Assembly (NCBI GenBank): GCA_001783035.1
Contig: MFQK01000047.1
Location: forward strand, 1,855-17,033
Source of the DNA: Candidatus Magasanikbacteria bacterium RIFCSPLOWO2_02_FULL_44_11
GTDB lineage: Bacteria; Patescibacteriota; Patescibacteriia; Magasanikbacterales; GWA2-37-8
DNA length: 15,179 nucleotides
Reading direction: 5' to 3'
This document shows, piece by piece, positions 12,354 to 15,179 of this stretch (position 1 is the first letter of the stretch; the number at the start of each line of letters is the position of its first letter). A model generated the notes under the pieces. It saw only the letters and a list, made by a program, of their open reading frames with translations, searched no databases and was not told the DNA's origin. The translations under genes were made by a program, and so were the position numbers.

Positions 12354-12440
12354 TAAAGAAAGCGTAACAGCTCACTGGTCAAGAGTTTTCGCGCCGAAAA
12401 TGTATCGGGGCTCAAACATGGTACCGAAGCTGCGAACTAT

Positions 12441-12884
12441 CGGAGGTCGGACTGCAGAAGTCAGAAATCTGAATATTAAGGAGGAAAGTATGTATGATGT
12501 ACAAGATATAAAAGTCTATCGGAATGTGCTGGTTCTTTTAGAACCACTGCAACGATTGGCAAGTCTTATCCCTCGAAGCGATTCACGTTTAAAAATCCAA
12601 CTACTCAACGCCGGAAGATCCGTTCCCGCGCAGATAGCTGAAGGTTTTGCTAAACGTCGATCGCAAAAGGAATACCGTCGGTTTCTGGAAATGGCTATCG
12701 GTTCGTCGGATGAGACCATAACTCACCTACGAATTATCCAGTTAGCACATTTTTCTCAAATCAAAACAGAGACCTGCGCGGCGTTGATCAAGCAATTTAC
12801 GATCATCTCCAAGCAACTTAATAAGTACATTCAAGCAGTATCCAAAAATATTCCAAGATCTGATATCTGAAGTCTGACTTCCGG
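12441..12884 (+). mobile_element. 23S rRNA intervening sequence (IVS) in helix 45
   Basis: The rRNA reads normally to GAAGCTGCGAAC and resumes at GGTAGTGGTAGAGGAGCGTTC, corresponding to E. coli helix 45, a known IVS site. The insert carries an IVS protein gene and is closed by a long imperfect stem: 12436-12453 pairs with 12871-12888 over 18 bp (15 Watson-Crick plus 3 G.U), and weaker pairing continues inward to about 12477/12847. Such IVS are normally cut out by RNase III without religation, leaving fragmented but working 23S rRNA. Exact ends are uncertain by a few bases because the arms merge with helix 45. Confidence 0.9.
12490..12870 (+). CDS. 23S rRNA IVS protein (four-helix bundle, S23 family)
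   Basis: 126-aa member of the four-helix-bundle family encoded by 23S rRNA intervening sequences. Helices are visible in order: KVYRNVLVLLEPLQRLASLI, SRLKIQLLNAGRSVPAQIAE, the conserved IAEGFAKR (49-56) with EYRRFLEMAIGSSDE (61-75), then a last helix (CAALIKQFTIISKQLNKYI). Family members form pentamers; their function is unproven. The start is ATG 12490, with AAGGAGG 6 nt upstream, the best ribosome-binding site in the window; the frame is open back to 12400, but that part is rRNA. The final codons and TGA (12868-12870) lie inside the right arm of the IVS stem, so folding of the rRNA would cover the end of the gene. Confidence 0.93.
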   Translation: MYDVQDIKVYRNVLVLLEPLQRLASLIPRSDSRLKIQLLNAGRSVPAQIAEGFAKRRSQKEYRRFLEMAIGSSDETITHLRIIQLAHFSQIKTETCAALIKQFTIISKQLNKYIQAVSKNIPRSDI

Positions 12885-13556
12885 TAGTGGTAGAGGAGCG
12901 TTCTTAGCGCACAGAAGCCCTAGGCGTGAGCCGGGGTGGAGTGCTAAGAAGTGAGAATGCAGGCATAAGTAGCAATAAGACAGGTGAGAATCCTGTCCGC
13001 CGAAAATCCAAGGTTTCCTGGGCAACGAGAATCGACCCAGGGTTAGTCGATCCTAAGGCCAGGCCGAAAGGCGTAACCGATGGAAGAGCAGGTTAATATT
13101 CCTGCACTATATACAGTTTGGTGCCAAGTGCACATCATAAAGCTTTGCTCGTGTTCTGAATATGCACGTTTCGCAAGATGAAGATGAAACCTTCGGGTGG
13201 AGTCGACGCAAGGGGATGTGGTGTCTAGAAAAGCTTGTCGCCGTTAAGCTGTATATAACCGTACCGTAAACCGACACAGGTGGGTGAGTCGAGGAGACTA
13301 AGGCGTATGAGAGAACCCTCGTTTAGGAACTCTGCAATACAACGGCCGTAACTTCGGGATAAGGCCTGCCCATCGCAAGATGGGTTACAACAAAAGACGC
13401 ACTGCGACTGTTTACCAAAAACACAGCTCCCTGCAAAAGCGCAAGCTGACGTATAGGGAGTGATGCCTGGCCAGTGTCAGAACGTTAAGGGGAGAGCTGC
13501 AAGGCTTGAACTGAAGCGCTGATGAACGCCGGCGGTAACTATAACCGTCCTAAGGT

Positions 13557-13849
13557 GTTCGCCTTCATTTAAAAATGGAAGTGAACAGGACTGGGACGGT
13601 AATAGGAAAAGTTTATGAAAACTTTATAAATAGTCGTGTATAATCGTAAAAAGCTGCTTCGCTCCATCGTAAGATAGAGCAGGTCCTCAAAAACACGCAG
13701 CCATATGCTGAGAAGTCCTTGAACCATGAAGGGCGATCAGCAGGAAAGGCCCTGACTAAGTTTAGTTAGGGAATCCTCAGAGACTAAACGCTGTGCTCCT
13801 TAAATAATAAGGATGAAGTTATAGTCCAGGCTAAAAAAAGGAAAGCCTC
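13557..13849 (+). mobile_element. Group I intron 1, insertion site L1931, ORF-less
   Basis: Splits the invariant CCTAAGGT | AGCGAAATTCC after U1931. Group I core elements are visible: P1 AAGGT (13552-13556) with guide GCCTT (13561-13565) giving a U.G at the splice site; P7 GACTA (13782-13786) with TAGTC (13822-13826) in the typical AAGTTATAGTCC context; P8 TCCTTA/TAAGGA (13797-13802, 13808-13813); a P6-like hairpin near 13750-13771; P9 AGGCT/AGCCT (about 13828-13848). It is 293 nt and has no ORF. The rRNA-based 3' boundary leaves C13849 as last intron base, not the usual terminal G. L1931 is a known group I site in bacteria and organelles. Confidence 0.85.
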
Positions 13850-13869
13850 AGCGAAATTCCTTGTCGGGT
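13850..13869 (+). rRNA. 20-nt 23S rRNA exon between the two introns
   Basis: Exactly matches the universally conserved E. coli positions 1932-1951 (AGCGAAATTCCTTGTCGGGT). It is flanked on both sides by group I introns, so correct 23S needs both to splice. It also supplies the 5' exon strand (TCGGGT) for P1 of intron 2. Confidence 0.9.
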
Positions 13870-14583
13870 GAACAAATTCTTCTGGTCGGAGAATACTTGC
13901 CCGAGTGCCGTGGCAACATGGCACAAGCATACTGACTCATAACGGTGGAGTCCTGAAAATGGATAATACCGTGGGAACACTTGTTTGAATAACTTGTGAC
14001 CCGTAACGACTGAGCCGAAAGGCGAGGTTTGACCATAGCAATATGGCATACAACACGTCAGCTCTTGTCACAACAAGAGTATCCACGAACGATGCGTCAT
14101 ATCTTACCGGTCTCACCGATGGTGAAGGCAGTTTTCTGGTTAGTTTCCAGAAACGACCTACCATGAGACTTGGTATAGAAGTTCGACCCAGTTTTACCCT
14201 CAGTCAGCATCAAAGAAACAAAGCGATCCTTGATTGGATTGTCGAATTTTTTGGATGCGGAACTGTTCGCTTCAATCGAAGCGATGAGACCTATAAATAT
14301 GAAGTACGAAGTTTAACTGATCTTCTTGAGGTAGTCATTCCTCACTTTGATCAGCATCCACTTCGAACTTCCAAAGCAGCCGACTTTCAGAAATGTAAGT
14401 CCATCTGCCTACTTATGGCTCAGGGTAAACATCTAACAAAAGCCGGTATGAGTGAAATCATTACCAGGGCTTATGCGATGAATAACTGGGGAGCTCGACG
14501 ATATGATAAGCAATCACTTCTACAGATACTGACAAGATGAAGGTATAGTCTGAACATTCTGGTAACAGAATGATAACACAATG
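13870..14583 (+). mobile_element. Group I intron 2, insertion site L1951, with homing endonuclease gene
   Basis: Splits GTCGGGT | GAGTTCCGACC after U1951. The internal guide ACTT-GCCCGA (13895-13904) pairs with both exons: GCCCGA with 5' exon TCGGGT (13864-13869) with U.G at the junction, and ACTT with 3' exon GAGT (14584-14587), forming P10. The intron ends in G14583. P7 is GACTG (14008-14012) with TAGTC (14546-14550) in an AAGGTATAGTC context; P9 is CATTCT/AGAATG. The 714-nt intron encodes a LAGLIDADG protein between the two P7 strands. Coxiella burnetii also has a 23S intron at L1951. Confidence 0.92.
14043..14540 (+). CDS. LAGLIDADG homing endonuclease (intron-encoded)
   Basis: 165-aa single-motif LAGLIDADG endonuclease, expected to act as a homodimer that cuts intronless 23S genes around the L1951 site and so spreads intron 2. 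The motif is YLTGLTDGEGSFLVSF (residues 20-35), with E28 at the catalytic acidic position. Later parts fit the family: VRPSFTLSQHQRNKAILDWI, FFGCGTVRFNRSDETYKYEV, HFDQHPLRTSKAADFQ, then LTKAGMSEII and ILTR. Single-motif enzymes are usually about 160-170 aa, so it looks complete. ATG 14043 is the first good start; no Shine-Dalgarno is seen. The TGA lies directly before the 3' strand of P7, so the gene uses the peripheral P8 region of the intron. It may also assist splicing (maturase), which is not demonstrable here. Confidence 0.93.
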   Translation: MAYNTSALVTTRVSTNDASYLTGLTDGEGSFLVSFQKRPTMRLGIEVRPSFTLSQHQRNKAILDWIVEFFGCGTVRFNRSDETYKYEVRSLTDLLEVVIPHFDQHPLRTSKAADFQKCKSICLLMAQGKHLTKAGMSEIITRAYAMNNWGARRYDKQSLLQILTR

Positions 14584-15098
14584 GAGTTCCGACCTGCACG
14601 AATGGCATAACGATAGTGCGACTGTCTCAACGAGGGACTCAGTGAAATTGCAAGGGAGGTGAAGATGCCTCCTACCCGCAACTAGACGAAAAGACCCCGT
14701 GAAGCTTTACTACAATTTGCTATTGGTATACGGTAATTCATGTTGAGCGTAGGTGGGAGCCTTCGGGCGCCAATGAGACACCACCCTTGGATTACTGTAT
14801 GCCTAATTTTCCCCCGTGAATCCGGGAGAGAAGACAGTGGCTGATGGGTAGTTTAACTGGGGCGGTTGCCTCCCAAAAAGTAACGGAGGCGTTTACAAAG
14901 GTAGGCTTAGCTCGGATGGAAATCGAGCTGGACGCGCAAACGCACAAGCCTGCTTTACTGCAAGAGCTACAACTCGAGCAGTCGCGAAAGCGGAAGTTAG
15001 TGAACCGACCATCCTTCATAGGAAGGTGGAAGATCAACGGATAAAAGCTACTCCGGGGATAACAGGCTGATCTGGCCCGATAGTCCACATAGACGGCC

Positions 15099-15140
<42 letters not shown>

Positions 15141-15179
15141 GAGAAGCTCCCAAGGGTTTGGCTGTTCGCCAATTAAAGC

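Follow-up and report, generated by a model that had tools for sequence, protein, structure and literature searches.

In the 23S rRNA gene of Coxiella burnetii, the upstream member of a pair of group I introns is inserted at position 1917, and this L1917 intron is the one that lacks the usual terminal G (omega-G). As described in PMC1995217, two group I introns flank a short exon in this gene, and the L1951 intron carries a LAGLIDADG gene; a title cited in PMC11270868 gives the exon a length of 34 bp and one of the two introns a non-canonical last nucleotide, without specifying its letter. According to passages of PMC4990558, helix 45 of this gene also contains an IVS that includes an S23p ORF. 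A survey of CPR genomes (Tsurumaki 2024, PMC11270868) names positions 1917, 1931 and 1952 among the frequent 23S intron sites, with group I introns at 1931 and 1952, some of which contain LAGLIDADG_1 ORFs and some of which do not. Searched by term, the main text of that survey showed no passage on adjacent pairs, on P10 or exon pairing, or on the last nucleotide.

Here, we describe a stretch of 15,179 bases (the window), the final part of a 17,033-base contig from a bin of 0.98 Mb and 56 contigs. Like the Coxiella gene, the 23S rRNA gene of the window has a short exon enclosed by two group I introns, a LAGLIDADG gene in the L1951 intron, one intron without omega-G, and a helix 45 insertion with an IVS ORF; like the CPR introns of the survey, its two introns occupy frequent group I sites, one with and one without a LAGLIDADG_1 ORF. 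The Coxiella parallel had been drawn in the original prediction, and the cited title supports it. The pair itself proves to be recurrent, and what we regard as the finding are two departures of its upstream intron that the original prediction did not mention: a last nucleotide other than G, and a stretch complementary to the exon (the anti-exon). We think it probable, judging from the sequence, that the two introns splice separately, after U1931 and U1951, and that the second step of the upstream intron relies on exon pairing and not on omega-G.

Layout of the locus

All features of the pair lie on the forward strand. The 5' exon (13531-13556), from the helix 69 region, ends in CCTAAGGT (1924-1931), a boundary read from the sequence. 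It is followed by intron 1 (13557-13849), 293 nt at L1931; by the 20-nt exon AGCGAAATTCCTTGTCGGGT (1932-1951) at 13850-13869; by intron 2 (13870-14583), 714 nt at L1951; and by the 3' exon (14584-15179), where the 23S rRNA resumes with GAGTTCCGACC and reaches the end of the contig. The small exon was identified by reading the sequence and by a search with the 20-mer, which has a single match in the window with up to two mismatches allowed and none in 200 shuffles. Site numbers follow E. coli, and we take the two sites to be 1931 and 1951; because a G stands at both edges of intron 2, the second site could be named either 1951 or 1952. PMC11270868, with its sites 1931 and 1952, agrees with these numbers. 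U1931 is followed by G, not by A, and A1932 is preceded by C, not by U, which makes the boundaries of intron 1 unambiguous and C its last nucleotide. In its outline the original prediction is borne out: two group I introns at L1931 and L1951, with exact coordinates and a match to the covariance model RF00028 in each segment, nothing but 1932-1951 left between them, and a LAGLIDADG gene (ORF scan and PF00961 profile match) in one intron only, the ORF scan having found no ORF of at least 80 aa inside intron 1.

Three other observations lie outside the pair. The 23S gene has a further insertion at 12400-12870, by eye in the helix 45 region, that contains a 23S_rRNA_IVP ORF (PF05635, 60.8 bits) and is apparently bordered by inverted repeats, like the IVS of Coxiella (PMC4990558). 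A second contig of the same bin (C21, L007:1-3500) carries another 23S 3' half. Its L1931 intron bears a gene and ends in A, its L1951 site is empty, and three group I matches below threshold fall in the peptidyl transferase centre region. The idea that C21 and the window's contig (C47) are two copies of one genome was dropped: their 23S exons are only 91-92% identical over 826 aligned bases, and C21 therefore more likely belongs to another organism. Finally, a sub-threshold group I match on contig C50 (L003:1440-1710) lies by eye within an apparent split tRNA gene on the minus strand; ARAGORN found no tRNA in this partly masked stretch.

Recurrence of the pair

A 1931/1951 pair was not one that the original prediction knew as described. 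A pattern scan of 84,980 species genomes uncovered 34 stretches in which the mini-exon is bordered by foreign bases, 25 of them interrupted on both sides and nine only at 1931, and both sites are frequent in CPR (PMC11270868); the notion of an unknown or unique pair was accordingly rejected. The hosts are CPR, with pairs from many groups, and members of four other phyla, under record titles that include Acidobacteria, Actinobacteria/Actinomycetota, Elusimicrobia and Gammaproteobacteria as well as Acidimicrobiales, Actinomycetes and Gaiella; these labels can err because the records are metagenome bins. In a phylum sample of 379 genomes, nine match the patterns of both sites, and a tenth (G186) proved on inspection to have both. 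The pair is recurrent, not common.

All searches together yielded 77 unique L1931-interrupted sites, defined by exon pattern, four of them without the 5' exon in view (L013, L016, L033 and L145). There are 31 pairs among them, and 46 sites lack an L1951 intron. Foreign flanks at L1917 were flagged at 18 of the 77 sites (two doubtful), and 11 of these 18 also have L1951, so that triple arrangements exist, with exons of 14 and 20 nt.

The L1951 intron and its endonuclease

Intron 2 is filed as group I because of its endonuclease gene, its P1 and P10, and its recurrence at a known site. RF00028 matches 14259-14572 with 26.2 bits (E 2e-4; cmscan, relaxed threshold), and the stretch 13870-14582 folds better than 20 shuffles (z -5.9). 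A P10 strand and a guide sequence, read from the sequence, lie side by side at 13895-13904: ACTT can pair with GAGT (14584-14587), and GCCCGA (13899-13904) with TCGGGT (13864-13869), so the original prediction was right that P1 of this intron uses the mini-exon. The mini-exon is in fact used twice, its 5' end as the P10 partner of intron 1 and its 3' end as the P1 strand of intron 2. The intron ends in AATG, with the terminal G in place.

The endonuclease gene (14043-14540) encodes 165 aa, and its 3' end overlaps the ribozyme core. Residues 21-122 match PF00961 (LAGLIDADG_1) over its full length (profile 1-102) with 91.2 bits, against a cut-off of 23.1 (E 9e-26), and intron 2 is probably the mobile member of the pair. 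Among the L1951 introns of at least 400 nt in the collected loci, the closest relative of its endonuclease, 66.7% identical, is found at locus L069 (genome G391, of the window's family), which has the same pair and an L1931 intron of 260 nt that ends in C and is identical to that of L022, a record named Ca. Magasanikbacteria. The next relatives, L073 and L152, are 59.9 and 56.2% identical. As in the window, all three of these endonuclease genes stand next to an L1931 intron that is short (255-262 nt), has a non-G end and contains an anti-exon. The organism of the window is therefore probably one of the Magasanikbacteria.

Anatomy of the L1931 intron

As judged by anatomy and covariation, intron 1 is a group I intron, and it is the covariation of the core that places it there. 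The covariance search that the original prediction offered as a check finds RF00028 at 13615-13840 with 37.5 bits (E 9e-8; cmscan, relaxed threshold), short of the curated gathering threshold of 50, a library cut-off and not a biological feature, under which both introns fall. The intron folds better than 200 shuffles (z -5.0). In an alignment of 16 sequences, 7 of them non-G, support by covariation for the group I helices amounts to 0.345, compared with 0.127 +/- 0.009 for shuffles and 0.055-0.086 for slid structures, with 90.3% of the cells paired and none of 500 shuffles attaining any of five measures, for a structure drawn on the window's own sequence and hence favoured.

The intron begins with a hairpin (13557-13586) that starts at nucleotide +1, lies within the P1 loop, changes on both sides in all four of its pairs and is paired in 98.4% of cells. 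About 100 nt into the intron, the P10 strand GCT (13653-13655; partner A1932-G1933-C1934 at 13850-13852) is followed by the internal guide sequence GCTT (13656-13659), which would form P1 with AGGT (13553-13556) and set a G.U wobble at U1931, the 5' splice site. P1 is weak in the window, with only 4 bp and two G.U pairs. The guide reads GCU-GCUU in the window and GCU-GCCUU in nine of the 16 aligned introns; it pairs with AGGU in all 16, where U1931 faces G in 12 and A in 4, and P10 is complete in 15. P1 is paired in 100% and P10 in 97.9% of cells (n=16; exon sides nearly invariant), and P10 shows no covariation because its exon side is fixed by the search pattern. Among 49 complete L1931 introns, P10 has at least 3 bp in 40 and fewer in nine.

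The P3-P7-P8 core that characterizes group I introns is present. P3 (5' strand 13696-13701; 3' strand 13790-13795) changes on both sides in five of six pairs. P4-P5-P4' spans 13706-13742, with invariant P4 pairs (TGCTG 13706-13710, CAGCA 13738-13742), P5 paired in 70% and P6 in 75% of cells. The P7 5' strand GACTA (13782-13786; 3' strand TAGTC, 13822-13826) forms the guanosine-binding site, whose two G-C pairs are kept in 16 of 16 introns regardless of the last nucleotide. The covariation alignment also places P8 at 13797-13813 and the P9 hairpin AGGCT/AGCCT at 13828-13848, flush with the last intron nucleotide at 13849. Changes on both sides are found in P2, P3, P8, P9 and the 5' hairpin.

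The P4-P6 domain is present in the window and missing as a whole, by eye, in four of the 16 aligned short introns: L014:122-340, L036:1299-1499, L043:2600-2835 (the same as L071) and L049:1521-1709 (minus strand). There, the 5' strand of P3 is followed by a few nucleotides and then P7, with P1, P10, P2, P3, P7, P8, P9 and a final G retained; tiny Phialophora introns without most core helices are known (PMC3160393). A possible pairing between AAGGAA in the P9 loop and UUCCUU in the exon was seen by eye and set aside. Two other placements were rejected by eye: a short P1, AAGGU/GCCUU, at intron nucleotides 5-9, which the window allows and the inspected relatives of the same subtype do not share, and a 5' splice site at U1926, for which the 3' exon side offers no copy of AAGGU.

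The last nucleotide of L1931 introns

A terminal G is a hallmark of group I introns with printed exceptions, and not a defining feature; PMC8146996 describes it as universally conserved and itself introduces an omega-A intron from a sea anemone. Intron 1 ends in C at 13849. The 77 unique L1931 insertions end in G in 48 cases, in A in 21, in C in 7 and in T in 1; the resulting 29 of 77 is not a population frequency, because the samples are uneven and overlapping, the pattern demanded a non-T base and the mini-exon had to be exact. The non-G cases come from CPR and from records titled Acidimicrobiales, Elusimicrobia, Gaiella and Armatimonadota.

Is this peculiar to the site? In the phylum sample of 379 genomes, where the patterns for all three sites excluded T, non-G ends occur in 10 of 21 L1931 introns (11 have G), compared with none of the 22 L1951 and none of the 10 L1917 introns, an excess with Fisher p values of 1.8e-4 against L1951 and 1.8e-5 against L1951 and L1917 together. 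The L1951 control had 29 matches, from which seven uninterrupted there (C at 1951) were dropped; the L1917 control had 21, from which 11 chance matches with no rRNA context were dropped, one of the 10 kept (L117) having no 5' exon edge in view. In the pooled set, A is the last letter of four of the 18 flagged L1917 flanks (L020 and L037, and the doubtful L031 and L042), so exceptions exist at L1917 as well. G ends 23 of 35 L1931 sites in the class sample and only five of 15, including one T and the C21 copy, in the order sample of 86 genomes; the phylum, class and order samples overlap, and all patterns required a non-T base before AGCG except in the order sample, where T was allowed and gave one match.

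The non-G end persists while stems differ, for the window and the L022 and L069 introns (same family, other genus) share C with unlike P9 stems, and it can also vary within a genus, where L066 ends in G, and L067 and L068 in A. It shows no association with the anti-exon, the L1951 pair or an L1917 intron (Fisher p 1.0, 1.0 and 0.58) or with P10 length (p 0.20). The anti-exon, the L1951 intron, the L1917 intron and a longer P10 were therefore dropped as compensation for the missing G, and no compensation was found among the tested features. In open-licence literature we found no printed precedent for omega-C, which ribozyme work leads one to expect would hinder exon ligation. The authors of PMC8146996 propose that omega-A prevents 3' hydrolysis and the formation of circles, which would favour exon joining, and as an analogy this idea would fit the L1931 introns.

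Perhaps, then, intron 1 is decaying and splice-impaired, cleaving the 5' site and ligating poorly, so that the 23S rRNA is partly fragmented at 1931. The terminal C and the weak P1 would suit such an intron, and Coxiella offers a likeness in its helix 45 IVS, after whose removal the 23S rRNA is left fragmented (PMC4990558). The site at 1931, however, adjoins helix 69 and is not an exposed loop, and it is difficult to see why a decaying intron would keep the core helices, the guanosine site, P1 and P10, with compensatory changes in the stems, across an alignment in which 7 of 16 members are non-G. Non-G ends are also common to different genera (A in L053, L054, L067 and L068, C in the window and L022), though L066, from the genus of L067, ends in G. 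We therefore consider decay unlikely and favour an intron that splices with the help of exon pairing. With more than a third of the examined L1931 insertions lacking omega-G and all 22 L1951 introns of the phylum sample having it, nature supplies many test pairs, which could show the role of the last nucleotide and what can replace omega-G.

The anti-exon in the P1 loop

Intron 1 belongs, by its sequence, to a CPR subtype in which the P1 loop contains a 13-nt stretch complementary to 1914-1926 of the 5' exon, within helix 69. In the window, the anti-exon GGGACGGTAATAG (13593-13605) can form 12 of 13 pairs with CTATAACCGTCCT (1914-1926; 13539-13551). Letters resembling GGGACGGUUAUAG and complementary to the same exon positions occur in the P1 loop of 38 introns, mostly starting at nucleotides 32-45 (one at 79); one of the 38 rows is doubtful (L060), and L066 and L068, where the anti-exon is shifted by one base, stand outside the rule. 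The anti-exon covaries with its own exon: 450 of 494 cells are paired, compared with a mean of 421 and a maximum of 437 in 5000 permutations, a test inflated by the relatedness of the sequences. Paired changes occur at 1924 (C-G to U-A; L034 and L154), at 1921 (C-G to G-U in four introns and to U-A in two, one of them L060) and at 1920 (C-G to U-A), and mismatches in four of 38 at 1920 and in 18 of 38 at 1914. The match in the window has a score of 26, where shuffles average 16.7 and 1% of 200 do as well; complementarity to the exon reaches p < 0.05 against shuffles in only 21 of the 49 complete introns. Relative to P1, the order of the pairings is pseudoknot-like, and the two might exclude each other. 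In three loci with an upstream L1917 intron (L129, L137 and L141), the pairing continues into the last 1-3 nucleotides of that intron, as if the anti-exon were to act before L1917 splicing; in L020 it does not.

We suggest that the anti-exon would grip 1914-1926, keep helix 69 open and tether the 5' exon. The same complementarity can be read as an alternative P1 that chooses a second 5' splice site after U1926, so that regulated or mistaken splicing drops AAGGU. An exon duplex that ends in a U.G pair is characteristic of P1, and U1926 faces G in 32 of the 38 introns and A in six. The product, however, would lack 1927-1931, and the conserved guide that pairs with AGGU at U1931 in every aligned intron leaves the alternative quite improbable. 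A tether would resemble a natural exon clamp and would tie removal of the intron to the folding of helix 69, an idea that makes splicing and ribosome assembly testable together.

How the pair may splice

According to the mechanism that we propose, each intron would remove itself in two steps. A guanosine bound in P7 would attack after the U, and the freed 5' exon would then attack the 3' splice site, held in place by P10. The partner of P10 in intron 1 would be AGC at the beginning of the mini-exon, and the P1 strand of intron 2 its last six letters, UCGGGU. Since the mini-exon would serve the two introns separately, either order of splicing is possible, and since the introns recognize different exon letters, exon skipping should be disfavoured. 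Intron 1 has no final G, and it would thus depend mainly on P10 and P9 to position its second step, with omega-C tolerated or slow; the expected ligated junction is CCUAAGGU-AGCGAAA. A pair of this kind would be useful for studying the order of splicing around a 20-nt exon.

If the true 3' splice site of intron 1 followed G1933, or some G upstream of 13849, omega-G would be normal and the mature RNA would have a few nucleotides more or fewer. Such a shift would restore a nearly universal rule, and A1932 and G1933 were set by the AGCG of the search pattern. Several features nevertheless point to one common site: P10 places it at 13849/13850, which makes a boundary error unlikely; GCU meets A1932-G1933-C1934 in all but one of the 16 aligned introns; by eye, G and non-G introns alike have the GGA of the P9 loop at a distance of 10 nt (13 of 16) or 9 nt (3 of 16) from this site; and the differing 5' ends of the introns, again by eye, are not rescued by any common shift. 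A displaced splice site is accordingly very hard to credit. Equally implausible is a single combined ribozyme in which the 20-nt exon is often skipped, limiting the supply of ribosomes, for although exon skipping is in print for the Coxiella and phage Twort intron pairs (PMC10136302), the guides and P10 strands here differ (GCU-GCUU and ACUU-GCCCGA) and most L1931 introns (46 of 77 sites) have no L1951 neighbour.

Separate splicing with a second step guided by the exon can be extended, much more tentatively, to a general view of L1931 introns. They could be a ribozyme lineage without the omega-G switch, its second step placed by exon pairing, to which a CPR branch has added an anti-exon as a clamp that covaries with the exon and unfolds helix 69, and in which P4-P6, lost in four relatives, is dispensable or supplied in trans; we regard this as a possibility that is more doubtful than likely. 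If it were true, bridge helix 69 would form only after splicing, which would amount to an assembly check.

Comparison with known systems

The window differs from Coxiella in its upstream site, 1931, in its omega-C, in its anti-exon and in the length of the exon, 20 nt instead of 34 bp. Synechococcus sp. C9, with introns at L1917, L1931 and L2593, likewise has LSU introns that lie close together and carry single-motif LAGLIDADG genes, but the mini-exon between L1917 and L1931 is 14 nt, shorter than that of the window, and both introns bear genes (PMC1995217). For the last nucleotide, the natural parallel is the omega-A of the sea anemone ND5-717 intron (PMC8146996), which interrupts a mitochondrial protein gene, whereas the pattern found here recurs in bacterial rRNA and includes omega-C. 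The anti-exon has its counterpart in trans-splicing group I ribozymes with an extended guide sequence, where, as described in PMC6155759, splicing increases when an antisense stretch is engineered beyond P1; that of the window is natural, acts in cis if it acts as proposed, lies in the P1 loop and would pair with the exon upstream of P1.
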